A stretch of DNA of 35,011 nucleotides from a virus: positions 1-35,011 of IMG/VR virus record IMGVR_UViG_3300025771_000081. One strand, given 5' to 3'. The notes below the pieces were generated by a model, which saw only the letters and a program-made list of their open reading frames with translations, was not told the origin of the DNA and did no database searches. A program made the translations under genes and the position numbers. This document shows, in pieces, positions 16,400 to 34,827 of this stretch; the first letter of the stretch is position 1; each line of letters begins with the position of its first letter.

Positions 16400-16543
16400 A
16401 TGCAAGTTCCCAATCGCTACCATCATTCTAAAAAGGAGCAAAAGCGGAAACTAAAACCGCAAGCACTCCGACAAGCAAAGGCACGACGCCAAGCACTCAA
16501 GAAGCGCCTCTCACGGGGCGCTTCTTATTTTATAAATAATTGA
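16400..16543 (+). CDS. Putative 47-residue highly basic protein
   Basis: Starts 5 bases after the gp46 stop: MQVPNRYHHSKKEQKRKLK, ending YFINN. Roughly a third of its residues are Lys or Arg, with almost no acidic residues, suggesting a nucleic-acid-binding peptide. An AAGGAG-like string lies inside the gene, and the start itself has only a weak ribosome site. Its last 15 codons run through the terminator hairpin and the late promoter box, so the same bases would code and regulate. It could also be a chance open frame. Confidence 0.5.
   Translation: MQVPNRYHHSKKEQKRKLKPQALRQAKARRQALKKRLSRGASYFINN
16499..16532 (+). terminator. Terminator after gp46
   Basis: Perfect 10-bp stem (16499-16508 with 16517-16526) around an 8-base loop, followed by a T-rich run interrupted by A. 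It ends the gp55-gp47-gp46 unit. Confidence 0.85.
16531..16538 (+). promoter_or_regulatory. Consensus late promoter box after the gp46 terminator
   Basis: Perfect TATAAATA directly behind the terminator and 20 bases before the next ATG. It marks the following gene as late. Confidence 0.75.
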
Positions 16544-16558
16544 AAAGGTATTTGTAGT

Positions 16559-17263
16559 ATGGCAAAGGACGAAAGAGAAGAAGGTATTACTGGACTACCT
16601 ATTCCCAAGAAAAAAATGAGTCCTAAAAAAAGACATGAGTTTGAGAAGAAAAGAAGAGCAGCAAGAAAAGAAAGGGGTGATGATAGAGTAGGAGATACAT
16701 TTTCTCAACATAGAATGACTGGTAGTAGAGGACATGGATCTGAACATGAAGTTAACCCCAGAATTTCTTACAGACATAATGAAGAGTATTTAATTGATTA
16801 TCTTCTTGGAGAAGGTTTTGCATCTGATGGGAAATCGGCTCAAGCAATCGTTGGTGCAATGAGTGAAGTGTGGAAAAATGATATTGTAGAACGTTATGCT
16901 GGTAGGCATGGTCAAACTGCCACACAATATGCGAACTCACGTTCTCCTGGAGGTAGTATGGTTTCTGGCACTGGAACTATGAGTGGTGCTGAATACACTC
17001 ACGGTAGCAGAGTCAAGGCAGCAAACCCTGGTATGCAACCTAATCCAGGCGGCAGTACCAGACCCCAGTCTCAGGGTAGAATGGATCGTGGCACCCGTGC
17101 AGATATGGAGTATCGTAGGGCAAACCTGAAAAATACGAGTAAAGGTGGACGTGGTGGTCGTAGTAGTGGTCGCGGTGGTCGTGGTGGTGGTGGGTTTAGT
17201 TCACTTGATACTGCCACTTATGGTATTGGTCAATTTGATCCAGCAAGACTTGGTGGAGTCTGA
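16559..17263 (+). CDS. Gly/Arg-rich probable virion protein, paralogous motifs with the 19686 product
   Basis: 234 residues. The N-terminal ~45 residues are Lys/Arg-rich and likely disordered. Residues 77-112 form a helical motif (YLIDYLLGEGFASDG and MSEVWKNDIVE). Residues ~128-180 are Gly/Ser/Pro-rich. Residues 181-192 carry ADMEYRRANLKN, followed by an RGG-like tract (GGRGGRSSGRGGRGGGG, 196-212). Both motifs recur in the 437-residue product at 19686, in the opposite order. A perfect late box 20 bases upstream suggests late expression, so a structural or packaged protein is likely. That role is an inference; no enzyme motif is present. Confidence 0.8.
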   Translation: MAKDEREEGITGLPIPKKKMSPKKRHEFEKKRRAARKERGDDRVGDTFSQHRMTGSRGHGSEHEVNPRISYRHNEEYLIDYLLGEGFASDGKSAQAIVGAMSEVWKNDIVERYAGRHGQTATQYANSRSPGGSMVSGTGTMSGAEYTHGSRVKAANPGMQPNPGGSTRPQSQGRMDRGTRADMEYRRANLKNTSKGGRGGRSSGRGGRGGGGFSSLDTATYGIGQFDPARLGGV

Positions 17264-17287: not shown

Positions 17288-17312
17288 AGGTGCCCTAGCG
17301 GCACCTTTTTTT
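17288..17312 (+). terminator. Terminator between the Gly/Arg-rich gene and the CobT-like gene
   Basis: 7-bp perfect stem (AGGTGCC with GGCACCT), 5-base loop and a run of seven T. It ends the late unit started at 16531. Confidence 0.9.
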
Positions 17313-17319
17313 GTATAAT
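17312..17319 (+). promoter_or_regulatory. Early promoter -10 of the CobT-like gene
   Basis: TATAAT (17314-17319) lies directly behind the terminator T-run, preceded by TG, 21 bases before the ATG. No good -35 match is seen 17 bases upstream. Confidence 0.55.
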
Positions 17320-17340: not shown

Positions 17341-19455
17341 ATGACCGTTCGCCACGAAATCAAGTCCCAACTCGCCAAACTTCTTGCTACAGAAGACCTT
17401 GTGGTTGAGCATAAGAAGGTAGAGACTGCCTGCTTTAATGTCCATACTCGTGTGCTGACCCTGCCTATGTGGGAGCGAGCAAGTAGCACCGTGTATGATC
17501 TTCTGGTGGGTCATGAGGTTGGTCATGCTCTCTATACTCCTGATGAGGATTGGTTGCAAAAGCACAAGATCCCCCCACAGTTTGTAAATGTGGTTGAGGA
17601 TGCCCGTATTGAGAAACTGATGAAGCGTCGTTATGCTGGTCTCGCTAAGACCTTCTATAACGGTTACAAGGAGTTGTCCGATGAAGATTTTTTCCAACTG
17701 AATGATGATGACCTTGATACTTATAATCTTGCTGATCGTGCTAACCTCTGGTTTAAGATTGGTAACTTCGTAGATATTCCTGTTGAGCGTGGTGAAGAAA
17801 CGGAAATCATCAATATGATTGCTGATACCGAAACCTTTGCTGATGTTTTGATTACTGCTGAGGCACTCTACAAGTTCTGTAAGCAAAAGCAGCAGGAAGA
17901 AACTAAGATCCCCATGGATGATTTGGAGTCTCAGAATTCTGGATCAAACCAACCTGCCTCTGATTTCTCCGACCAACCTGAAGGTGAGAATGAAAGTGAC
18001 CAGGAGCAACCTGGTGAAACTGAATCTTATGGTGGAACTTCTGATGAGCATAATGAAGAACCTGAGGTTAAAACCATGGAGTCTCTGGAAGAGGCACTGA
18101 AGGATCTTGCCAATGTGGATGGTTATGAGAATGTTTATCTGGAGTTGCCTAAGGTCGATTTAAATAAAATTATTGTCCCTAACTCCGAGATTCATTCTAA
18201 GTGTGATGAATACTGGGGATCTTGGTTGGAGGAAAAAGAATATTCTGAACAGGAAATCTTTGGTGAAGTTGACAAGAAGTTTTTGGAGTTCAAGCGTTCT
18301 GCTCAGAAAGAAGTAAACTATCTGGTCAAAGAGTTTGAGTGTCGTAAGGCAGCAGACTCTTATGCCCGTGCTACCACTGCCCGTACTGGTGTTCTGGACT
18401 GCACTAAACTTCATACCTACAAATACAATGAGGATCTTTTTAAGAAAGTTACCACTCTTGCCGATGGTAAGAACCATGGTCTGGTGTTTGTCCTCGATTG
18501 GTCTGGTTCTATGAGTGATGTGATGCTTGATACTATTAAGCAACTCTTTAACCTTGTTTGGTTCTGTAAGAAGGTTTCTATTCCCTTTGAGGTTTATGCA
18601 TTTACCAATGAGTATCCTCTGGTTTCTTATGATGAAGAAGGTAGGGCAACTCTACGTGAACTTTCCTATGATAAAAGAGATGGTCTTGTTCAAGTTGGTG
18701 AATGGTTTTCAATGATGAACCTTCTCACTAGCAAAGTGAATGGTAAGACTTTAGATAATCAGATGAGGAATATTTACCGTCTTGCTTCTTCTTTCCGTTA
18801 TAATTCTTACGTTTACTATACATGTCCCGTGGGTATGAGTCTTTCTGGAACCCCCCTGAATGAGGCACTAATTTCTCTTCATCAGATTCTTCCTAAGTTT
18901 GAGAAAGAAAATAAATTGCAAAAAGTTCAGTGTGTAATTTTGACTGATGGTGAAGGTGCTCTACTTAAATATCACCGCGAAGTTCAACGCAGATGGGAAG
19001 AAGAACCTTACATGGGCACTGCACACATTGGTTCTAATTCTTTTATTCGTGATCGAAAGACTGGCATGACTTATTCTTGTGATTGCGAATATTATGAATT
19101 TACTAACATACTACTTCGCAATCTTCGTGACAGGTTTACTGATATGAACTTTATTGGTATTCGTGTACTCGAATCTCGTGATGCTGGGCACTTTATTCGT
19201 CGTTACTGTGGATACTATGGGGATACTTATGATAAGACTATGAGTGCATGGAAGAAAGAAAAGGCATTCAATATTAAGACTTCTGGTTATAATGCATATT
19301 TCGGTCTTTCTGCTGCAACGCTTGCTCAGGAATCTGAATTTGAAGTTGCCGATTATGCTACCAAGTCTCAAATCAAATCCGCATTTGTGAAGAGTCTTAA
19401 ATCTAAGAAGATGAATAAAAGGATTCTTGGTGAGTTTATAGAACTTGTTGCTTGA
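17341..19455 (+). CDS. CobT-like zinc peptidase-VWA protein
   Basis: 704 residues from the ATG at 17341. A TTG start 30 bases earlier would lie on the promoter. The N-terminal domain has a zinc-protease motif HEVGH (His58, Glu59, His62) with a following NVVEDARIEK segment that could give the third metal ligand. A low-complexity acidic, Gln/Ser-rich linker covers about residues 180-260. The C-terminal VWA domain has a complete metal site: DWSGS (Asp386, Ser388, Ser390), a later Thr in SGTPL, and Asp in LTDGEG. This layout resembles CobT and MoxR-associated VWA proteins, and a CobS-like AAA+ ATPase lies two genes downstream. The intact HExxH suggests a peptidase or metal-dependent chaperone role besides, or instead of, cobalt insertion. 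The target is unknown. Confidence 0.88.
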   Translation: MTVRHEIKSQLAKLLATEDLVVEHKKVETACFNVHTRVLTLPMWERASSTVYDLLVGHEVGHALYTPDEDWLQKHKIPPQFVNVVEDARIEKLMKRRYAGLAKTFYNGYKELSDEDFFQLNDDDLDTYNLADRANLWFKIGNFVDIPVERGEETEIINMIADTETFADVLITAEALYKFCKQKQQEETKIPMDDLESQNSGSNQPASDFSDQPEGENESDQEQPGETESYGGTSDEHNEEPEVKTMESLEEALKDLANVDGYENVYLELPKVDLNKIIVPNSEIHSKCDEYWGSWLEEKEYSEQEIFGEVDKKFLEFKRSAQKEVNYLVKEFECRKAADSYARATTARTGVLDCTKLHTYKYNEDLFKKVTTLADGKNHGLVFVLDWSGSMSDVMLDTIKQLFNLVWFCKKVSIPFEVYAFTNEYPLVSYDEEGRATLRELSYDKRDGLVQVGEWFSMMNLLTSKVNGKTLDNQMRNIYRLASSFRYNSYVYYTCPVGMSLSGTPLNEALISLHQILPKFEKENKLQKVQCVILTDGEGALLKYHREVQRRWEEEPYMGTAHIGSNSFIRDRKTGMTYSCDCEYYEFTNILLRNLRDRFTDMNFIGIRVLESRDAGHFIRRYCGYYGDTYDKTMSAWKKEKAFNIKTSGYNAYFGLSAATLAQESEFEVADYATKSQIKSAFVKSLKSKKMNKRILGEFIELVA

Positions 19456-19461
19456 TAAATA
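19454..19461 (+). promoter_or_regulatory. Late promoter box overlapping the CobT-like stop
   Basis: GATAAATA uses the last two bases of the TGA stop and ends 25 bases before the ATG of the repeat protein. Confidence 0.6.
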
Positions 19462-19486
19462 TAAGAAGAGTATTTTGTATAGTACA

Positions 19487-19660
19487 ATGGGTAGATTTTT
19501 AGATCTTATTTCTTCAGATGTAAAACCCGTAGTAGAAACTACACCAGAACCCGTAGTAGAAACTACACCAGAACCCGTAGTAGAAACTACACCAGAACCC
19601 GTAGTAGAAACTACACCAGTGGTGAAGGCAGCAAGAGTTAAAAAACATAACAAAAAATAA
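19487..19660 (+). CDS. Small Pro/Glu/Val/Thr repeat protein
   Basis: 57 residues from the ATG at 19487. An in-frame TTG 42 bases upstream is inside the CobT-like gene. A 15-residue head (MGRFLDLISSDVKPV) leads into an eight-residue unit (PEPVVETT) repeated about four times, then a basic tail (VKAARVKKHNKK). The repeats are encoded by near-perfect 24-bp DNA repeats. Such Pro/Glu-rich tracts are extended spacers, as in TonB-like linkers, so it may be a virion-associated tether or a short structural peptide. A late box upstream supports late expression. Function unknown. Confidence 0.7.
   Translation: MGRFLDLISSDVKPVVETTPEPVVETTPEPVVETTPEPVVETTPVVKAARVKKHNKK
19526..19618 (+). repeat. Tandem 24-bp coding repeat, 3.9 copies
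   Basis: Copies at 19526-19549, 19550-19573 and 19574-19597 are identical, and 19598-19618 matches the first 21 bases. It is in frame, so copy changes would add or remove eight residues without frameshift. Confidence 0.95.
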
Positions 19661-19663
19661 ATA
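19656..19663 (+). promoter_or_regulatory. Late promoter box upstream of the 437-residue protein
   Basis: AATAAATA overlaps the stop of the repeat protein and ends 22 bases before the next ATG. Confidence 0.6.
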
Positions 19664-19685
19664 TTAATATAGGACAGATAAAAAA

Positions 19686-20999
19686 ATGAACACCAAACAA
19701 GTATCAGATTTCAACTTGCTTTATCATGCAGTTTATGATGAGAATCTCAGAGAGCAAGTTGAAGATTATAATAATACCGTCTTTGATGAGGACATTGTAG
19801 AAGTTGCAACCGAGTATTTCTATACTTATGGACTCAATGAAGATGGTGTTAATATCTTGATCGAAAAAGTTGGTCTTGATAATTTTGTAGAATTTGTTTA
19901 TGATCTTTCTGAAGATTTAACAGTTCTTACCGAAGCAAGATCGGCAAGAAAAAGAAAAGGTGGGCCTTCATATGAAGAAGTGAAATCAAAAATTGATGCA
20001 AAAGAAGCAGCAAAGAAAAAGGCGAAGGCAGCAGCACAAGAAAGATCTGAAACTGAAAAAAAAGAACCAGAATCAAAAGGTGCTGATACTGAAGCAAAGG
20101 AAGAGCAATCAAAATCAAAAAAACCAATTCGTGATGCCATTGCAAGACAAGTTCTTGCTGGTATGGAACGTCATCGTAAAGCAATGGAACTTGCTAGAGA
20201 AACTAGTAAAACAGTTGCAAAAGCAGCATCGGTAGCACATGAAGCAGGTCGTCGTGCTGGAGAGCATGTTAAGAAGTATGGGTTGAAATCTCTTGCAAAT
20301 GAAGAAATTGAAAATTATTTTGATGAAGCAGCAAAGAGAACTCGTAAAAAAGTAAGGGGTGCTAAAGATCCTGAAAAGGAAATGGCAGGTCGTTCCGATG
20401 CTGGTAAAAGAATTTCTGGTGATGAAAAAACTGGTCCAAGACATTATACTTTAGGGCGTAAAGTTTCTCCAGATGCCCCAACACAACCAGGGAAAAAACC
20501 AGAAGGTACTCCTAAATTGGCAAGTTGGGAAAGGGATGATATTGAATATCGTAAAGCAAATTTAAAAGCAGGAAAAACTCACAAGGTTGGTGGTGAAAAG
20601 GGTCTTCCAGAATCTTATGATAATTTTGATTATATTCTTGAGTACTTGGTTGCTGAAGGTTACGCTGACACTAATCAGGCAGCATTTGCTATTATGGCAA
20701 ATATGAGTGAAGAGTGGAGACAGAGTATTGTTGAGGGATGGGCAGAAGTTCGTGCCAATGTCACTGACGCTCTCCCCTGGAACCGTAACACCAAGTACAC
20801 CACTCAAGGTGAACTCCGTAAGCCTGGTGAAAATGTTTATGGTCAACAAACTGGTAGAGGTTTGAATGTTCAGACTCATGCGGTGAAGAAAGGAGGTAAA
20901 CCTACACCTCCCCCAAGTGGAGTGTTTCCCCCACTCATGCCTAAACCAAGAACTAAACCTAGACCTGATAGAGGTAGAGAGTTTTCTCATGGCAGTTGA
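19686..20999 (+). CDS. Lys/Ala-rich probable virion structural protein
   Basis: 437 residues. The N-terminal ~85 residues form an acidic helical domain (LLYHAVYDENLREQVEDYNN, then VEFVYDLSEDL). Residues ~86-240 are Lys/Ala/Glu-rich and mainly helical or coiled. Residues 284-294 carry DIEYRKANLKA, and residues 316-350 the helical motif YILEYLVAEGYADTN with MSEEWRQSIVE. The C-terminus is Pro/Lys/Arg-rich. The last two motifs are shared, in swapped order, with the 16559 product. A late box precedes it and a terminator follows. Similar long, charged proteins are known as cyanophage virion proteins, which is the best guess here. No enzymatic motif is seen. Confidence 0.82.
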   Translation: MNTKQVSDFNLLYHAVYDENLREQVEDYNNTVFDEDIVEVATEYFYTYGLNEDGVNILIEKVGLDNFVEFVYDLSEDLTVLTEARSARKRKGGPSYEEVKSKIDAKEAAKKKAKAAAQERSETEKKEPESKGADTEAKEEQSKSKKPIRDAIARQVLAGMERHRKAMELARETSKTVAKAASVAHEAGRRAGEHVKKYGLKSLANEEIENYFDEAAKRTRKKVRGAKDPEKEMAGRSDAGKRISGDEKTGPRHYTLGRKVSPDAPTQPGKKPEGTPKLASWERDDIEYRKANLKAGKTHKVGGEKGLPESYDNFDYILEYLVAEGYADTNQAAFAIMANMSEEWRQSIVEGWAEVRANVTDALPWNRNTKYTTQGELRKPGENVYGQQTGRGLNVQTHAVKKGGKPTPPPSGVFPPLMPKPRTKPRPDRGREFSHGS

Positions 21000-21008
21000 G
21001 CAATAAGT

Positions 21009-21028
21009 AATCCACTTTCTAAACTGTC
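21009..21028 (+). repeat. Conserved 20-bp element, copy 2 (before cobS-like gene)
   Basis: Matches copy 1 (17263-17282) at 18 of 20 bases and has the same position before a terminator-promoter pair. Confidence 0.75.
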
Positions 21029-21033
21029 ACAGT

Positions 21034-21055
21034 GGCACCGACAGGTGCCTTTTTT
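21034..21055 (+). terminator. Terminator before the CobS-like gene
   Basis: Perfect 6-bp stem (GGCACC with GGTGCC), loop GACA and six T residues. The loop forms the right half of the -35 box of the next promoter. Confidence 0.9.
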
Positions 21056-21066
21056 ATGGGTATAAT
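21038..21066 (+). promoter_or_regulatory. Early promoter of the CobS-like gene, -35 in the terminator loop
   Basis: CCGACA (21038-21043), a 17-base spacer, then a perfect TATAAT (21061-21066). The -35 matches the consensus at 4 of 6 bases and lies across the terminator hairpin loop. The ATG follows 34 bases after the -10. Confidence 0.65.
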
Positions 21067-21100
21067 ATGAGAGTTCAAATGAAACACACCTAACTACATC

Positions 21101-22219
21101 ATGCCTCGTAAAATTTCTGTGACCGACGAACAACTCATTTCTGACCTCAAATCTCTGTTTGGTACAGAGTTTTCTGCTGGTGATGTTCGTGGTTATTGTG
21201 CATCTAAGGGTATTTCTTATCCCACTGTTACTAATCGTCTTGAACCTTTTAAAACTGCTCGCGGTCGTTGGAATCTTGAAGTGACTCAAGAACGAGTTGA
21301 GGAAATCGAACGCTCTTATCAAGCACCTGCCGCTCTTCCTTCTGTCGAACAAAATCTTATTCCTGAAAAAGATGATACCTTCGTCAAGTTTGGTAACTTT
21401 GCTGATGTTAAAAAAATTATTCAGTCCCGTCTATTCTATCCGACGTTCATTACGGGTCTGTCTGGTAACGGCAAAACGTTTTCTGTTGAGCAGGCATGTG
21501 CCCAGTTGGGACGTGAACTCATCCGGGTAAACATTACCATTGAAACTGATGAAGACGATCTTATTGGCGGTTTTCGCCTTGTGGATGGCAACACTGCTTG
21601 GCACAATGGACCTGTCATTGAAGCACTCGAACGAGGGGCAATCTTGCTACTCGATGAAATTGACCTTGCTTCTAACAAAATCCTCTGTCTCCAATCCATC
21701 CTTGAAGGTAAGGGTGTGTTTCTGAAAAAGATTGGACGTTGGGTGAAACCTGCTGCTGGTTTCAACGTTATCGCTACTGCCAATACTAAGGGTAAGGGTT
21801 CTGATGACGGTCGTTTCATCGGCACCAATGTCCTCAATGAGGCATTCCTTGAGCGTTTCCCTGTGACTTTTGAGCAGTCCTATCCTTCTCCTGCCACTGA
21901 GCAGAAGATTCTGGAAGGAATTGCTCTGGACCTTGGCGTGGAAGACCGTGACTTCTGCAAGCGCCTGGTTGATTGGAGTGATATCATCCGCAAGACCTTC
22001 TATGATGGTGGTATTGAGGAAATCATCAGCACCCGTCGCCTGGTCCACATCATTCGTGCCTATAGTATTTTCAAAGATAAGGCAAAGGCAATCCAAGTTT
22101 GTGTGAATCGTTTTGATGATGAAACCAAGCAAGCATTCCTTGAACTTTATGACAAGGTGGATGCTGATTTCCAAATGCCTCAGGATCGTCAGGAACTTGA
22201 CCCCTCAGATACTTTCTGA
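21101..22219 (+). CDS. cobS: CobS-like AAA+ (MoxR-type) ATPase
   Basis: 372 residues. Walker A GLSGNGKT (119-126), Walker B ILLLDEID (Asp185, Glu186), sensor 1 ATANTKGKG (Asn228) and an Arg-finger region NEAFLERFPV. The N-terminal ~60 residues look like a small winged-helix-type domain. This is the protein annotated CobS in cyanophages, where CobS with CobT and CobN would insert cobalt into a corrin ring. No CobN lies in the window. The family is close to MoxR ATPases, which work with VWA proteins; the HEVGH-VWA protein at 17341 is the obvious partner. It has its own early promoter, and the next promoter begins inside its 3' end. Confidence 0.92.
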   Translation: MPRKISVTDEQLISDLKSLFGTEFSAGDVRGYCASKGISYPTVTNRLEPFKTARGRWNLEVTQERVEEIERSYQAPAALPSVEQNLIPEKDDTFVKFGNFADVKKIIQSRLFYPTFITGLSGNGKTFSVEQACAQLGRELIRVNITIETDEDDLIGGFRLVDGNTAWHNGPVIEALERGAILLLDEIDLASNKILCLQSILEGKGVFLKKIGRWVKPAAGFNVIATANTKGKGSDDGRFIGTNVLNEAFLERFPVTFEQSYPSPATEQKILEGIALDLGVEDRDFCKRLVDWSDIIRKTFYDGGIEEIISTRRLVHIIRAYSIFKDKAKAIQVCVNRFDDETKQAFLELYDKVDADFQMPQDRQELDPSDTF

Positions 22220-22769: not shown

Positions 22770-23435
22770 ATGAAACTCTCTGACAACACCCTGACCATTC
22801 TCAAGAATTTTGCTGGCATCAATAACTCTATTCTTGTGAAGCAGGGTAACAAACTCCGCACTATTTCTGTTGCTAAGAACATTCTTGCTGAAGCAGATAT
22901 TACTGAGGAGTTTCCTCGTAGTTTTGCAATCTACGATCTTAATCAATTTCTGAATGGTCTTGGACTTCATCAAGATCCTGATCTTGATTTTGCTGAAGAA
23001 TCTTATCTCAGCATCAAAGAGGGTAAGCGTCGTGTGAAGTATTTCTTTGCAGATCCAAACGTGATTATTTCTCCTCCCGATAAGGACATTCAACTTCCTT
23101 CATCTGATGTGTGTTTCCAACTGGATAGCACTTCTTTGGAAAAACTGGTGAAGGCAGCAGCAGTTTACCAACTTCCTGACCTTTCCGCTGTTGGAGAGAA
23201 TGGTGTAATCAAACTGGTGGTTCGTGATAAGAAGAATGATACTTCTAACGAATATGCCATCGTTGTTGGTGAGACTGATGAAGAGTTCAGTTTTAACTTC
23301 AAGGTTGAAAACATCAAGATCATTCCTGGCGCTTATGACGTGGTGGTCTCTTCTAAACTTTTGTCACAGTTCACGAATACCAAGTATAATCTGACCTATT
23401 ATATTGCTCTGGAACCTGATTCCACATTTGGATGA
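22770..23435 (+). CDS. 45: Sliding clamp gp45
   Basis: 221 residues from the ATG at 22770 (T4: 228). The trimeric ring tethers DNA polymerase and also activates late transcription with gp55. The start MKLSDNTLTILKNFAGINN aligns with T4 MKLSKDTTALLKNFATIN. An ATG 21 bases upstream (22749) overlaps the previous stop and would add MKLQDKT, a near copy of the first seven residues, so either start may be used. Other clamp segments: FAIYDLNQFLNGL, KYFFADPNVIISPPDK and the C-terminal YYIALEPDSTFG. The next gene overlaps its stop. Confidence 0.93.
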   Translation: MKLSDNTLTILKNFAGINNSILVKQGNKLRTISVAKNILAEADITEEFPRSFAIYDLNQFLNGLGLHQDPDLDFAEESYLSIKEGKRRVKYFFADPNVIISPPDKDIQLPSSDVCFQLDSTSLEKLVKAAAVYQLPDLSAVGENGVIKLVVRDKKNDTSNEYAIVVGETDEEFSFNFKVENIKIIPGAYDVVVSSKLLSQFTNTKYNLTYYIALEPDSTFG

Positions 23436-23866
23436 TGCAATTTCTTCTTTATCTTTCTCCCGAAGGAACCGAAATCTATAATATGATTTCAAAAAAAATT
23501 CGGGTAGTTGAAAACACACCCATTTGTCGTAAACATGACATTTATGGTTGGTATCAAAACACATCTAAAACGATGGTTCTTTGTACAGACAGAATTCTTT
23601 CTAATAAAAATTCTAAGTACTACATAAACGAAACTTTATTTCATGAATCAGTGCATGTTGCTCAAGCATGTAAACAGAATATGAATGATGTAAAAGAATT
23701 TGGTATTTCACCTACTTCAATGAATCTTTCACACAATAAAAATAAAGATCTTATGAAATCAGTTTCAATATCAGGTAAACATACCCTTCTCCTTGAAAAG
23801 GAAGCACTATGGATGGAAGATAAACCTAAAAAAGTTAAGTATGTAGTTAAAAAGTATTGTTTTTAA
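23432..23866 (+). CDS. Small zincin-like protein (HESVH motif)
   Basis: 144 residues, start overlapping the gp45 stop (ATGATGC). Metal-protease motif HESVH at 71-75 within INETLFHESVHVAQAC, and a later LEKEALWMED helix whose Glu (122 or 124) could be the third zinc ligand, the gluzincin layout. No signal peptide or membrane segment, so a cytoplasmic or packaged enzyme. Substrate unknown. It sits between clamp and clamp-loader genes but has AT-rich codons unlike gp45. Function as a peptidase is an inference from the motif. Confidence 0.75.
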   Translation: MMQFLLYLSPEGTEIYNMISKKIRVVENTPICRKHDIYGWYQNTSKTMVLCTDRILSNKNSKYYINETLFHESVHVAQACKQNMNDVKEFGISPTSMNLSHNKNKDLMKSVSISGKHTLLLEKEALWMEDKPKKVKYVVKKYCF

Positions 23867-30000: not shown

Positions 30001-32501
30001 TGAGATTTTACACAAACGTCCAGATGGTCGGGGATCACTTCTTGGTTCGCGGTTACGAAAATGGTCGCCATTTCGCAACTCGTGAGAAGTTTAACCCGAC
30101 TCTTTTTGTCCCTTCTCGAAAGAAAACTAAATATCATACTTTGAATGGTGAGTATGTTGAAGCAGTTCAACCCGGTTCTGTTCGTGATTGTCGTGAGTTC
30201 ATTAAAAAGTATGATGGTGTAGAAAACTTCAAGATTTATGGTAATACTCAGTACATCTATCAGTATATTTCTGAGATGTATCCTGAGGAAGAACTGAAGT
30301 TTGATATTAGTAAAGTTAAAGTTACCACTCTTGATATTGAGGTTGCATCTGAGAACGGATTCCCTGATGTAGAGTCTGCTGCCGAAGAAGTTCTCCTCAT
30401 CACCATTCAAGACTATTCCTCCAAACAGATTCGTACCTGGGGTATGGGTCCTTTTAAGAACCAACAGAAGAATGTAATCTATCGTTCGTTCAATAACGAG
30501 CGTGATCTATTGATGGACTTTATTAACTGGTGGATGGTTGAAGAAAATACACCAGAAGTTGTAACTGGTTGGAATATTGAATTGTATGACATTCCATATC
30601 TTGTTCGTCGCCTAGATCGTATTCTGGGTGAAAAACTGATGAAGCGTATGTCTCCATGGGGACTGGTGACCGAAGATGAGATTTATATTGCTGGTCGTAA
30701 ACATATCTCTTATGATGTTGGTGGTATTAGTCAACTTGATTATTTGAATCTTTATAAAAAATTTACTTATAAAGCGCAGGAATCATATCGCCTCGACTAT
30801 ATTTCAAGCGTGGAACTTGGGCAGCAAAAACTTGACCACTCTGAGTTTGATACCTTTAAAGATTTTTATACTAAAGGGTGGCAAAAGTTTGTAGAATATA
30901 ACATTATTGACGTAGAACTTGTTGATCGTTTGGAAGACAAGATGAAACTGATCGAACTTGCTTTGACTATGGCATACGATGCCAAAGCAAATTATAACGA
31001 TGTGTTTTCACAAGTTCGTATGTGGGATACGATCATTTATAACTATTTAAAGAGGAGAAATATTGTCATTCCTCCTAAAGAACGTTCCGATAAGGATTCT
31101 AAGTATGCAGGAGCTTACGTCAAGGAACCGATTCCTGGAAAGTATGATTGGGTTGTGTCTTTTGACCTTAATAGTCTGTACCCTCACCTTATTATGCAGT
31201 ACAACATTTCCCCAGAGACGCTCTTGGACGAGAGACACCCAATGGTTACAGTTGATAAGATACTTGAAGAGCAAATAACCTTTGAGATGTATAAGGACTA
31301 TGCAGTGTGTGCCAATGGTGCCATGTATCGTAAAGATGTGCGTGGGTTTCTTCCAGAATTGATGGAGAAGATCTATAAAGATCGAACTATCTACAAAAAG
31401 AAAATGCTTGCTGCCAAACAGGAGTATGAGAAGACAAAGACAAAAGAGTTGGAAAAGGAGATTGCTAGATGCAACAACATCCAAATGGCAAGGAAGATTC
31501 AACTTAATTCTGCTTATGGTGCTATCGGTAACCAGTATTTCCGTTATTATAAACTAGCAAACGCAGAAGCAATTACACTTTCCGGACAAGTTTCTATCCG
31601 ATGGATTGAGAATAAAGTTAATGGATATCTAAATAAACTTCTACAAACAGAAGAAGTCGATTATGTTATTGCATCTGACACCGATTCAATCTATCTTAAT
31701 ATGGGACCTCTTGTTACTAAATTTTTTAGTAATCAGTCTGATGATAAAACAAAGATTGTTGGAATACTTGATAAGATCTGTCAAGAGAAACTGGAACCAT
31801 TCATCGAATCTTGTTATCAGGAACTTGCGAATTATGTTTCGGCGTATGAGCAAAAGATGCAAATGAAGCGAGAGAATATCGCTGAGCGTGGTATCTGGAC
31901 TGCGAAGAAGCGATATATTCTCAACGTATGGAACAGTGAGGGTGTTCAGTACAATGAACCCAAACTGAAGATGATGGGTATTGAGGCAGTCAAGTCTTCT
32001 ACACCTGCCCCCTGCCGTCAGATGATTAAAGACGGTCTCAAACTAATGATGAATGGGACTGAAGATGATGTTATCAACTTCATCGAAGAATGTAGAGTGA
32101 AGTTCAGAAGTCTTCCTCCAGAGGAAATTGCTTTCCCAAGAACTGCTTCAGATATTCGTAAGTATCACTCTTCATCAGACATCTATACTAAGGGTACTCC
32201 TATTCATTGTCGTGGAGCACTTCTATTTAATCACTACGTGAAGCAGAAAAAACTTACTAATAAATATTCACTTATCAATAATGGGGAAAAAATTAAGTTC
32301 CTCTATTTGAAAAAACCAAATATCATTCAGGAGAACATTATCTCCTTTATTCAGGACTTCCCACGGGAACTTGGTCTTGACAAATACATCGACTATGACC
32401 TACAATTTGAAAAGAGTTTTGTAGAACCCCTTAAGTCTATTCTTGATGCTATCGGGTGGAATGTCGAAAAAACTGTAAACCTAGAATCGTTTTTCTTTTA
32501 A
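30000..32501 (+). CDS. 43: Family B DNA polymerase gp43
   Basis: 833 residues (T4: 898). Replicative polymerase with proofreading. Exonuclease motifs: Exo I TLDIEVAS (Asp112, Glu114), Exo II VTGWNIELYDIPYL, Exo III YNIIDVELVD. Polymerase motifs: A FDLNSLYPHLIM (Asp389), B KIQLNSAYGAIGN, C ASDTDSIYL (Asp560, Asp562). The C-terminal residues NLESFFF resemble the clamp-binding tail of T4-like polymerases. Uninterrupted, without intein or intron. It starts on the last base of the preceding stop, and its own stop overlaps the next mini-gene. Confidence 0.98.
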   Translation: MRFYTNVQMVGDHFLVRGYENGRHFATREKFNPTLFVPSRKKTKYHTLNGEYVEAVQPGSVRDCREFIKKYDGVENFKIYGNTQYIYQYISEMYPEEELKFDISKVKVTTLDIEVASENGFPDVESAAEEVLLITIQDYSSKQIRTWGMGPFKNQQKNVIYRSFNNERDLLMDFINWWMVEENTPEVVTGWNIELYDIPYLVRRLDRILGEKLMKRMSPWGLVTEDEIYIAGRKHISYDVGGISQLDYLNLYKKFTYKAQESYRLDYISSVELGQQKLDHSEFDTFKDFYTKGWQKFVEYNIIDVELVDRLEDKMKLIELALTMAYDAKANYNDVFSQVRMWDTIIYNYLKRRNIVIPPKERSDKDSKYAGAYVKEPIPGKYDWVVSFDLNSLYPHLIMQYNISPETLLDERHPMVTVDKILEEQITFEMYKDYAVCANGAMYRKDVRGFLPELMEKIYKDRTIYKKKMLAAKQEYEKTKTKELEKEIARCNNIQMARKIQLNSAYGAIGNQYFRYYKLANAEAITLSGQVSIRWIENKVNGYLNKLLQTEEVDYVIASDTDSIYLNMGPLVTKFFSNQSDDKTKIVGILDKICQEKLEPFIESCYQELANYVSAYEQKMQMKRENIAERGIWTAKKRYILNVWNSEGVQYNEPKLKMMGIEAVKSSTPAPCRQMIKDGLKLMMNGTEDDVINFIEECRVKFRSLPPEEIAFPRTASDIRKYHSSSDIYTKGTPIHCRGALLFNHYVKQKKLTNKYSLINNGEKIKFLYLKKPNIIQENIISFIQDFPRELGLDKYIDYDLQFEKSFVEPLKSILDAIGWNVEKTVNLESFFF

Positions 32502-32671
32502 TGGATCTTCCTATTAATGATAAAGATCTTGCGACTATTGTGAGCGCACTGCATCTTGGCGGTGACACCGCTTTATATCAAAAACTTAAACTGGTAAAAG
32601 AGATTCGTCAGGAAAATCCTGGCGGACCCTACAAAAAAATTCTTCGTGAGCAATATGGTATTGCAGCATAA
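32501..32671 (+). CDS. Mini-gene 1 after gp43 (tandem paralogue)
   Basis: 56 residues from the ATG at 32501, overlapping the gp43 stop by one base. MDLPINDKDLATIVSALHLGG, then ALYQKLKLVKEIRQENPGGP: two helices with a Gly-rich turn. The N-terminal half matches the product of the next gene (LPI, KDL, TI, AL, LY, KL in the same order). Unknown function; likely a small helical hairpin binding a protein partner. Confidence 0.75.
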   Translation: MDLPINDKDLATIVSALHLGGDTALYQKLKLVKEIRQENPGGPYKKILREQYGIAA

Positions 32672-32805
32672 TGTCAATAGAATTACCAATTACAAAAAAA
32701 GACTTAGATACTATTATTGAAGCATTAAAAGGTCCTCATCCTGATCTTTATGCTAAGCTTTGGTGTTATAAAATTAACTACATGAATAAGGAGAAAAATG
32801 ATTAA
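32671..32805 (+). CDS. Mini-gene 2 after gp43 (tandem paralogue)
   Basis: 44 residues, starting on the last base of mini-gene 1 (TAATG). MSIELPITKKDLDTIIEALK, then GPHPDLYAKLWCYKINYM. It shares the LPIxxKDLxTIxxAL...LYxKLxxxK pattern with mini-gene 1, so the two arose by duplication. More AT-rich than mini-gene 1 and lacks its C-terminal extension. Its end overlaps mini-gene 3 by 8 bases. Confidence 0.7.
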   Translation: MSIELPITKKDLDTIIEALKGPHPDLYAKLWCYKINYMNKEKND

Positions 32806-32917
32806 ACTAAAATATCAACTTAAAGAGCATCCAAATACAATACTTTTTAAGTTCTTTAAAACTGAAGAGCAGGTAGAGATTTTTAAATCTCAAAATTCAC
32901 ATTATATTTTTAGGTGA
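32798..32917 (+). CDS. Mini-gene 3 upstream of uvsX
   Basis: 39 residues: MIKLKYQLKEHPNTILFKFF, then KTEEQVEIFKSQNSHYIFR. A strong ribosome site (AAGGAG, 32788-32793) lies 4 bases before the ATG, which supports real translation. Predicted strand-strand-helix. It ends 3 bases before uvsX, and its last codons carry the AGGTGA that probably serves uvsX. Unknown function. Confidence 0.65.
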   Translation: MIKLKYQLKEHPNTILFKFFKTEEQVEIFKSQNSHYIFR

Positions 32918-32920
32918 TTT

Positions 32921-33925
32921 ATGGACTTTCTTAAAGATATTGTAAAAGAGATTGGTGATGACTACACCAAACTAGCATCAGACATTGACGAGACTGAAAC
33001 TTATGTGGACACAGGTTCGTACATTTTTAACGCACTGGTTTCAGGTAGCATATTTGGTGGTGTATCTGGGAATAAGATTACTGCTATTGCTGGAGAATCT
33101 TCTACTGGAAAGACTTTCTTCAGTCTCGCCGTTGTTAAGAATTTTCTTGATACCAATCCCGATGGTTATTGTCTCTATTTTGATACTGAGGCTGCTATCA
33201 CCAAATCTCTTTTAGAATCGCGTGGAATTGATACTTCTCGTTTGGTTGTTGTGAATGTCGTAACCATTGAGGAGTTTCGTAGTAAGGCACTCAAGGCAGT
33301 GGATATCTACTTAAAAAAACCTGTAGATGAACGCAAACCTTGTATGTTTGTGTTAGACTCTCTGGGTATGCTCTCAACTGAGAAAGAGATTACTGATGCA
33401 CTGAACGACAAACAAGTTCGTGACATGACCAAATCTCAATTGGTCAAAGGTGCGTTCCGTATGCTTACTCTCAAGTTGGGTCAGGCAAACATTCCAATGA
33501 TCGTTACTAACCACACCTATGACGTTATCGGTGCTTATGTTCCTACTAAGGAGATGGGAGGTGGTAGTGGTCTTAAGTATGCCGCTTCTACTATCATTTA
33601 TCTCTCAAAGAAAAAGGAGAAAGATGGAACAGAAGTCATTGGAAACATTATCAAAGCAAAGACTGCTAAATCACGTTTAAGCAAAGAGAATAAAGATGTG
33701 GAAGTTCGCCTTTATTATGATGAGCGTGGTCTTGATCGATATTATGGTCTTCTTGAACTCGGTGAGATTGGTGGACTTTGGAAGAATGTAGCAGGACGTT
33801 ACGAAATGAATGGTAAAAAAGTATATGCTAAGCAAATTCTTAAAGAACCGGAACAATATTTTACTGAAGAAGTAATGAATCAATTGAATGAAATTGCAAA
33901 AGAAGAATTTAGTTACGGTAAGTGA
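32921..33925 (+). CDS. uvsX: RecA-like recombinase UvsX
   Basis: 334 residues (T4: 391; cyanophage versions are shorter). Forms filaments on single-stranded DNA and performs strand exchange with UvsY. Walker A GESSTGKT (58-65), Walker B CMFVLDSLGML (Asp146), and L2-loop-like segment YVPTKEMGGGSGLKYA. C-terminal extension with WKNVAGRYEMNG. Ribosome bases AGGTGA overlap the previous stop. Confidence 0.96.
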   Translation: MDFLKDIVKEIGDDYTKLASDIDETETYVDTGSYIFNALVSGSIFGGVSGNKITAIAGESSTGKTFFSLAVVKNFLDTNPDGYCLYFDTEAAITKSLLESRGIDTSRLVVVNVVTIEEFRSKALKAVDIYLKKPVDERKPCMFVLDSLGMLSTEKEITDALNDKQVRDMTKSQLVKGAFRMLTLKLGQANIPMIVTNHTYDVIGAYVPTKEMGGGSGLKYAASTIIYLSKKKEKDGTEVIGNIIKAKTAKSRLSKENKDVEVRLYYDERGLDRYYGLLELGEIGGLWKNVAGRYEMNGKKVYAKQILKEPEQYFTEEVMNQLNEIAKEEFSYGK

Positions 33926-33927
33926 TT

Positions 33928-34827
33928 ATGAGTGGGAGAGTAATTGATTGTTTTCCATATTTTAATGAGAAAGAATTATTAGAACTAAGAATTAAACTTT
34001 TGTATGATTACGTCGATAAATTTATAATTACCGATGCCAATTATACACATAGTGGAAATCCAAAACCATTTACGTGTAAAGCGGAATTAGAAAATCTAGG
34101 ATTGGTTGGAGATAAAATTCAAGTTATTGAATTGGATTTATCTGATGATAAAATTTCAAATCCAGATGATTATGATAAGTTCTGGGGTGGGAATGAGATA
34201 ACATTGGGAAGTAGAGAACGGTTGCAAAGGGATGGTATATTAACTATCTTGGACGAGTTTGATCAGGATGATGTTTTTATAGTTTCTGACTGTGATGAAA
34301 TTATAAATCCTCATACAATACAATTTCTATCTAATATCTTGAGATATCAGTATGATAATGTTTTGAAAATTCCACTGGTTCTTTTGGAAGGAAGGGCAGA
34401 TTTAAGATCTTATCGAACAGAAGATAATACTGAAAAACCATGGGATAGATCCATGTACATGTGTTTAAAACATCACTTAGAAAAATGCTTTCCAACACAA
34501 ATCAGATCAGAATATTATCTCCCATTTAGTGTGACATATGCTTATGAGAATGGGAATAGACTTATTGATCTTGGTTGGCACTTTACCTGGATGGGTGATA
34601 CAATTAGACGAATTACAAAAGCAGAATCATTTTGCCATTTTTCGGATCATTTGATAGAATATATGAAAACTTATGTTCCAAATGAAAATGAACTTAGTCC
34701 AGAATCAATTTATTTTAACCATACTGATTATATCTTAAAAAAATATCCAATCGAAAATTTACCAAGTTTAATTTTTGATTTGCCAAATGTAAAAAATTTT
34801 TTATTACCAAATAATGGAACGAATTGA
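33928..34827 (+). CDS. Glycosyltransferase family 17-like protein
   Basis: 299 residues from the ATG at 33928, preferred to a GTG 6 bases upstream that overlaps uvsX. VIDCFPYFNEKELLELRIKL followed by DKFIITDANYTHSGNPKPF is typical of family 17 (beta-1,4-N-acetylglucosaminyltransferase-like) proteins. An acidic donor-site motif VSDCDEIINP and LGWHFTWMGD follow. Acceptor unknown: capsid, DNA or host surface glycan. Very AT-rich. It lies between uvsX and gp41, where T4 has gene 40, and overlaps gp41 by 14 bases. Confidence 0.85.
   Translation: MSGRVIDCFPYFNEKELLELRIKLLYDYVDKFIITDANYTHSGNPKPFTCKAELENLGLVGDKIQVIELDLSDDKISNPDDYDKFWGGNEITLGSRERLQRDGILTILDEFDQDDVFIVSDCDEIINPHTIQFLSNILRYQYDNVLKIPLVLLEGRADLRSYRTEDNTEKPWDRSMYMCLKHHLEKCFPTQIRSEYYLPFSVTYAYENGNRLIDLGWHFTWMGDTIRRITKAESFCHFSDHLIEYMKTYVPNENELSPESIYFNHTDYILKKYPIENLPSLIFDLPNVKNFLLPNNGTN

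Follow-up and report, generated by a model that had tools for sequence, protein, structure and literature searches.

The described systems closest to the genes considered here are NorQD and the cobaltochelatase subunits CobS and CobT. NorQD is a machine that inserts iron, in which the C-terminus of NorD is anchored to the ATPase ring and a 'finger' of the same protein enters the pore (PMC13036017). 'cobS' ranks among the auxiliary metabolic genes regarded as core in T4-like cyanophages and is cited as evidence that ocean viruses boost B12, and Liu et al. 2021 (PMC8651126) proposed that a viral CobST boosts cobalamin through host CobN. The literature is split, however, since phage annotations call the partner of the phage 'CobS' a 'peptidase'. 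We analysed such a gene pair in a 35,011-nt stretch of viral DNA (IMG/VR record IMGVR_UViG_3300025771_000081, hereafter the window). The pair encodes a MoxR-type AAA+ ATPase and a protein that joins a zincin-like domain to a von Willebrand factor A (VWA) domain. It is not a standard cobaltochelatase CobST. We regard it as a MoxR/VWA remodelling machine whose zincin-like domain has kept its motif intact, and which probably acts on a client from the replication/recombination programme.

A core gene pair of marine cyanophages

Both open reading frames (ORFs) of the original prediction were recovered (coordinates written with two dots are on the plus strand). The zincin-VWA protein (704 aa; 17341..19455), for which an AlphaFold2 (AF2) model was obtained, belongs to phrog_459, annotated 'peptidase' (PHROGs E 4.7e-268). 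The ATPase (372 aa; 21101..22219) belongs to phrog_249, annotated 'CobS' (PHROGs E 4.8e-140). The 35-kb window is a fragment of a T4-like cyanomyovirus with the gene order tail sheath, capsid-module genes, uvsW, gp55, gp47, gp46, pair, gp45, gp44, gp43, hsp20, uvsX. The same order is found in S-SRM01, whose proteins are 73% (zincin-VWA) and 87.5% (ATPase) identical to those of the window.

Among phage records 463 carry the zincin-VWA gene and 458 the ATPase gene, nearly all of them Kyanoviridae; outside this family the former occurs in phage records of Pelagibacter (3), Stenotrophomonas (1), Pseudoalteromonas (1), and Ochrobactrum (1). The ATPase gene follows the zincin-VWA gene in 135 of the 156 contigs with the latter, some contigs stopping before the ATPase. 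The two genes are therefore a core pair of Kyanoviridae, carried by nearly all T4-like marine cyanophages. A Pelagibacter phage too has a pair, and distantly related pairs are present in SSU5-type elements of enterobacteria. The paper on S-CREM2 reported cobS to be absent, yet the ortholog pair is there under other names as ORF55-56 (31017-34271). In the assembly of a Nonlabens xiamenensis isolate, one 188-kb contig (NODE_6) represents part of a T4-like phage genome and shows the synteny of the window; it may be a contaminant and was not used as evidence for a host lacking CobN.

An intact zinc-protease motif, absent from the cellular CobT examined

The N-terminal domain of the zincin-VWA protein contains HEVGH at residues 58-62 (17512..17526), on a predicted helix spanning residues 49-65, and NVVEDARIE at residues 83-91 (17587..17613), on a predicted helix at 79-97. 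The C-terminal VWA domain (approximately residues 377-704; 18469..19452) has a complete metal ion-dependent adhesion site (MIDAS) made up of DWSGS 386-390 (D386, S388, S390), T504, and D536. The full protease motif and VWA metal site claimed in the original prediction are thus both present. H58, E59, H62, N83, E86, D87, E91, D386, S388, S390, T504, and D536 are invariant in 31 relatives (29-80% identity), in which invariant columns account for only 6.5% of the well-filled ones. Because this set had partly been gathered with HEVGH as a pattern, used in two scans, conservation was recounted on relatives collected without it, and HExxH was kept in 76/76. The seven Kyanoviridae isolates picked via tblastn all have it as well, and H58, E59, H62, N83, E86, and D87 were all invariant across 33 divergent members. 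The occurrence of these motifs, together with those of the ATPase described below, is far beyond chance.

The original prediction had asked for a third zinc ligand; judging from the alignment, the invariant E86 is a likely candidate. At the level of sequence, the protein thus has HExxH and a conserved downstream candidate for the third ligand, as expected of a zincin metallopeptidase. Profile matches to zincin families were weak and sub-threshold (PF04298, E 4e-4; MPTase-PolyVal, 0.024), and the protein reaches no named peptidase family at cut-off. A stretch of AcrIIA26 (PDB 9zq6_B), NFVEDNFIE, resembles the N-xx-ED-xx-IE motif of the N-domain, a similarity that may be due to chance (E 0.083).

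Cellular CobT is different. Among 38 alphaproteobacterial CobT proteins spread over the PF06213 score range HExxH is found in none, while the MIDAS sequence DNSGS is found in 37. An aligned segment of a true CobT (HDVAVHRR...AVEQARVE), for example, retains the second motif but not the first. The 704-aa protein matches neither CobT profile (PF06213, with which the window was searched, or PF11775), nor any other Pfam family. The VWA domains of the phage protein and CobT are homologous (hhalign E 6e-6), which favours a viral CobST. Directly, the phage N-domain and CobT are only weakly related (E 0.03), and we therefore draw the link between them solely via SSU5-type phage-plasmid proteins. These read HEVAH...NALEDVFIE, score 130 and 374 bits against the two CobT profiles, and align with CobT at E 6e-37 and with the phage N-domain at E 2.4e-9 (130 columns). 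The simplest reading of these sequences is one HExxH-VWA superfamily in which CobT would be the branch that lost its site; the direction of this change is inferred. We found no published work treating CobT as a metallopeptidase in the literature searched. Since the zinc-protease motif is intact in the phage protein and lost in 38 cellular CobT proteins, the pair more likely works as a machine driven by ATP, remodelling or cutting other proteins while the viral DNA replicates.

The ATPase and the predicted structures

The Walker A (GLSGNGKT, residues 119-126; 21455..21478), Walker B (ILLLDEI, residues 181-187; 21641..21661), and sensor-1 (ATANT, residues 225-229) motifs of the ATPase are intact, as had been claimed, and R252 is a candidate arginine finger. 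A predicted beta-hairpin at residues 156-169 (21566..21607) is placed where MoxR proteins have their helix-2 insert, an element with a role in NorQ (PMC13036017). Two Pfam families exceed their cut-offs, AAA_5 (65.2 bits) and CbbQ_C (22 bits). The CobS equivalog TIGR01650 was not reached, the score being 66.6 bits against a cut-off of 558.55, which argues against a viral CobS.

The AF2 model of the ATPase (pLDDT 74, pTM 0.46) comprises an AAA core and an N-domain (residues 9-72; 21125..21316) with the element order H-E-H-H-E-E-H and pLDDT of about 81-90 over residues 11-60, which by its modelled fold may be of the winged-helix class. NorQ in NorQ-NorD complexes was the best Foldseek match (E 3.7e-14), followed by CbbQ, and structure comparison with such NorQ/CbbQ folds gave Z 16.3 and 15.3. 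The fold search returned no CobS structure, possibly because these are more recent than the library used; the structure-comparison lists, which contain neither CobS nor a zincin, are uninformative on membership. The phmmer match that made Midasin appear the closest ATPase (E 8e-50) adds up the scores of several AAA domains, none of which exceeds 43 bits singly, and was discarded. Pfam scores and NorQ/CbbQ-like folds identify the protein as an AAA_5-type ATPase with MoxR subfamily features. With a neighbouring VWA partner whose MIDAS is intact, the two proteins match a MoxR AAA+/VWA pair.

In the model of the zincin-VWA protein (mean pLDDT 76.6, pTM 0.66), HExxH and the ED motif lie on two helices of the N-domain. 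At the zincin/VWA boundary follows an acidic low-confidence linker (approximately residues 186-250, 17896..18090; D+E 32%; pLDDT <50 at 190-238), and then the VWA region. The best structural match of the latter was MDN1-MIDAS (Z 16.2 over 228 residues, rmsd 3.9), followed by NorD (Z 15.6 over 241 residues, rmsd 4.3), ordinary VWA domains scoring lower (Z ~11-12). A helix at residues 303-349 (18247..18387), N-terminal to the VWA core, lies within the region aligned to VWA constructs of NorD that contain the finger entering the pore (PMC13036017), and by analogy may be the equivalent of that finger. The protein ends in -[V/I]-[A/V/S], with V or I at the second-last residue in 141 of 142 family members, a conserved C-terminus that is consistent with a ring anchor like that of NorD. 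The structure predictions called for in the original prediction thus place the individual folds closest to NorQ/NorD and Midasin.

CobN and the host side

If the pair were a viral CobST, it would supply two ATPase subunits that the host lacks, hijack host CobN, and raise cobalamin. The host side is compatible with this. CobT was found in 0/59 cyanobacterial and 0/2 picocyanobacterial genomes, CobN-family genes are present in both picocyanobacterial genomes, and a host-type Prochlorococcus genome has CobN above the equivalog cut-off. Because these hosts have CobN without CobT, hijacking is possible in cyanobacteria and the complementation logic holds.

The phage side fits less well. No CobN lies in the window, as the original prediction had noted (the genome itself being known as this 35-kb fragment), nor was one found in 16 pair-bearing relatives whose records were searched whole (S-SRM01, P-SSM2, and 14 more). 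A tblastn search of 50,697 phage records with cyanobacterial CobN and ChlH gave two matches only, in Pseudomonas phage Y13 and a fecal phage. Both belong to other kinds of phage than those with the pair, so that none of the roughly 460 pair-bearing records was matched. A pair also occurs in a Pelagibacter phage, and the hosts of the related enterobacterial-element pairs are not CobN users; an E. coli control genome had no CobN-family match, and hijacking therefore fits poorly for the enterobacterial relatives. In addition, the class I ribonucleotide reductase (RNR) small subunit is present in 7/7 Kyanoviridae isolates tested, so that the phage's own reductase needs no B12. Together with the active-type HExxH, the CobS score far under cut-off, and the replication genes next to the pair, these data make cobalamin boosting by a viral CobST unlikely in our view.

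On the cellular side, 29 of 60 CobT-positive alphaproteobacterial genomes had no detected CobN, to which gaps in metagenome-assembled genomes may contribute, and a Caulobacter control had CobT and no CobN match. Cellular CobT may therefore have another role.

The same reductase bears on another explanation, a MoxR/VWA chaperone that would insert metal into a non-corrinoid metalloenzyme of the infection such as the class I RNR of the phage; HExxH would then hold the metal and cut no peptide. NorQD provides a precedent, true CobST likewise serves metal insertion, and the presumed substrate occurs in all the isolates. However, the catalytic-type glutamate E59 is invariant, which is beyond the needs of metal binding alone; no class I small subunit accompanies the related proteins of T5S1; and fixed linkage to nrd genes is not seen. 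We consider such a chaperone no more probable than a viral CobST.

Genomic neighbourhood

The order in Kyanoviridae is gp47/46-pair-gp45/44, while in S-CREM2 the pair is located at a different genome site beside recA, primase, and polymerase genes. A pair lies 5′ of DNA Pol III alpha in SSU5, pJN2-26, B1VFA, RHph_Y2_11, ZY21, and an Acinetobacter element, a neighbourhood that spans SSU5-type, Rhizobium, Pseudomonas, and Acinetobacter elements. As the SSU5-like elements have this block in common, they were counted once. Zobellviridae have the pair with polymerase/primase genes, in T5S1 on the strand opposite to the virion genes, and in IncC plasmids the ATPase and the VWA protein flank ssb-bet-exo on either side. 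This recurrent placement among replication/recombination genes of unrelated elements is suggestive.

Two further small ORFs of the window were noted. One between gp45 and gp44 (23432-23866) has a second HExxH (HESVH) and a weak sub-threshold match to Peptidase_M76. The other, between the zincin-VWA gene and its downstream neighbour (19488-19660), consists mostly of four tandem 24-nt units encoding VVETTPEP repeats.

Transcription signals and the flanking proteins

Each gene of the pair is preceded by a terminator hairpin and a TATAAT box: GGTGCC..GGCACC-T7 and TATAAT at 17314-17319 (together 17289..17319) 5′ of the zincin-VWA gene, and GGCACC..GGTGCC-T6 and TATAAT at 21061-21066 (together 21034..21066) 5′ of the ATPase gene. 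In relatives, the zincin-VWA gene is preceded by the terminator in 94/134 cases (70%) and by TATAAT in 56/134 (42%), the ATPase gene in 88/126 (70%) and 115/126 (91%), respectively; random windows of the same contigs gave 24/948 (2.5%) and 91/948 (9.6%). The late box was not enriched 5′ of the pair (1/260 starts versus 14/948 random, p 0.21); its absence is not significant as a signal by itself, only the TATAAT/terminator enrichment is. The pair is transcribed as its own early/middle-type units.

These results bear on the proposal that the pair is a virion maturation protease which cuts the two lysine/glycine-rich proteins on either side of the zincin-VWA gene. Late boxes had been predicted for both flanking genes. 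The upstream one (X, 16559..17263) does have the exact box TATAAATA at 16531-16538; the downstream one (Y, 19686..20999) has just an imperfect GATAAATA ~225 nt upstream, and TATAAATA occurs 4 times in the window against 3.1 expected from shuffles, which is no enrichment. What unites both accessory proteins is a 35-aa module (EYILEYLVAEGYAD..MSEEW), at 16777-16880 and 20621-20740 in the window and at four places in the S-SRM01 record. Several lysine/glycine-rich late proteins of these phages have it, although they are not related in other respects, and module proteins have a late box at 14/25 starts, which favours a virion connection. Yet a protein such as Y is usually absent between the pair, module proteins lying there in just 12/64, 4/49, and 1/7 cases by hidden Markov model count. 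Conservation this low and lineage-specific rules out the flanking proteins as conserved substrates, and their late promoters are unlike those of the pair. Moreover, the S-CREM2 virion proteome (52 proteins, PMC10665884) lists neither pair member and does contain a gp21-type protease, and in T5S1 the pair is in the replication arm. We therefore think virion maturation very improbable. Of the original prediction, the MoxR-type machine in place of a chelatase is supported by profile scores, by HExxH retention against its loss in CobT, by the lack of CobN in phages with the pair, and by predicted folds; virion maturation as its target is not.

A possible mechanism and its implications

By analogy with NorQ-NorD, the ATPase would form a hexameric ring into which the C-terminus and the VWA region of the partner dock. 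ATP hydrolysis may shift the position of the VWA domain with respect to the N-terminal one via the flexible acidic linker. A client gripped by the MIDAS and the N-domain would then be remodelled, and probably cut by, or supplied with metal through, the HExxH site. The client would most likely be a protein of the replication/recombination programme, as opposed to cobalt-corrinoid chemistry or the virion.

Several observations weigh against this proposal. A PDB profile search with the N-domain returned chance-level matches only and nothing credible, and no zincin of known structure was matched to the N-domain in a fold search dominated by the VWA part. The AF2 models are of only moderate confidence by their pTM. 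By single-domain sequence score, the nearest PDB match of the ATPase is CobS (77 bits; NorQ, 54 bits), which speaks for the viral CobST. The replication link, counted in few independent lineages, is suggestive only, and it is missing in Gordonia phage Niagara as well as in Roseobacter phage CRP-810. Finally, some distant pair members (ZY21, the Acinetobacter element) lack the exact HExxH, and catalysis is therefore not required in every relative.

More broadly, and only tentatively, ATP-powered MoxR-VWA metalloproteases acting on replication/recombination proteins may be widespread in phages and plasmids, with CobST a domesticated branch whose protease site is dead. Should the two proteins prove to be a metalloprotease that remodels proteins, the count of cobS as an auxiliary metabolic gene and the ecological inference drawn from it would be wrong, and one of the core steps in the replication of cyanophages would so far have gone unstudied. 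The split in HExxH (0/38 versus 76/76) offers a one-residue genetic test.

Relation to known systems

NorQ-NorD, like the phage pair, consists of a separate MoxR ATPase and a VWA partner with a C-terminal MIDAS-bearing VWA domain and a conserved C-terminus, and its members are the best or second-best matches to the predicted folds. It differs in that NorD has no HExxH N-domain, while the phage ATPase has an additional N-terminal domain that appears winged-helix-like. Midasin/Rea1 (MDN1) is the top structural match for the VWA/MIDAS region and has an ATPase of the AAA_5 type, but its AAA domains and its MIDAS belong to a single protein, which lacks a zincin domain. CobS/CobT share with the phage proteins homologous AAA and VWA domains and an N-xx-E[DQ]-xR[VI]E motif; CobT, however, has no HExxH and partners CobN, whereas the phage pair keeps HExxH and comes with no phage CobN. 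The pairs of SSU5-type phage-plasmids and IncC plasmids combine, as the phage pair does, an HExxH-VWA protein with a MoxR ATPase (phrog_249) near replication/recombination genes. Their N-domains are less than ~20% identical to that of the phage protein, and the SSU5 VWA domain is much nearer to CobT_C (374 bits).

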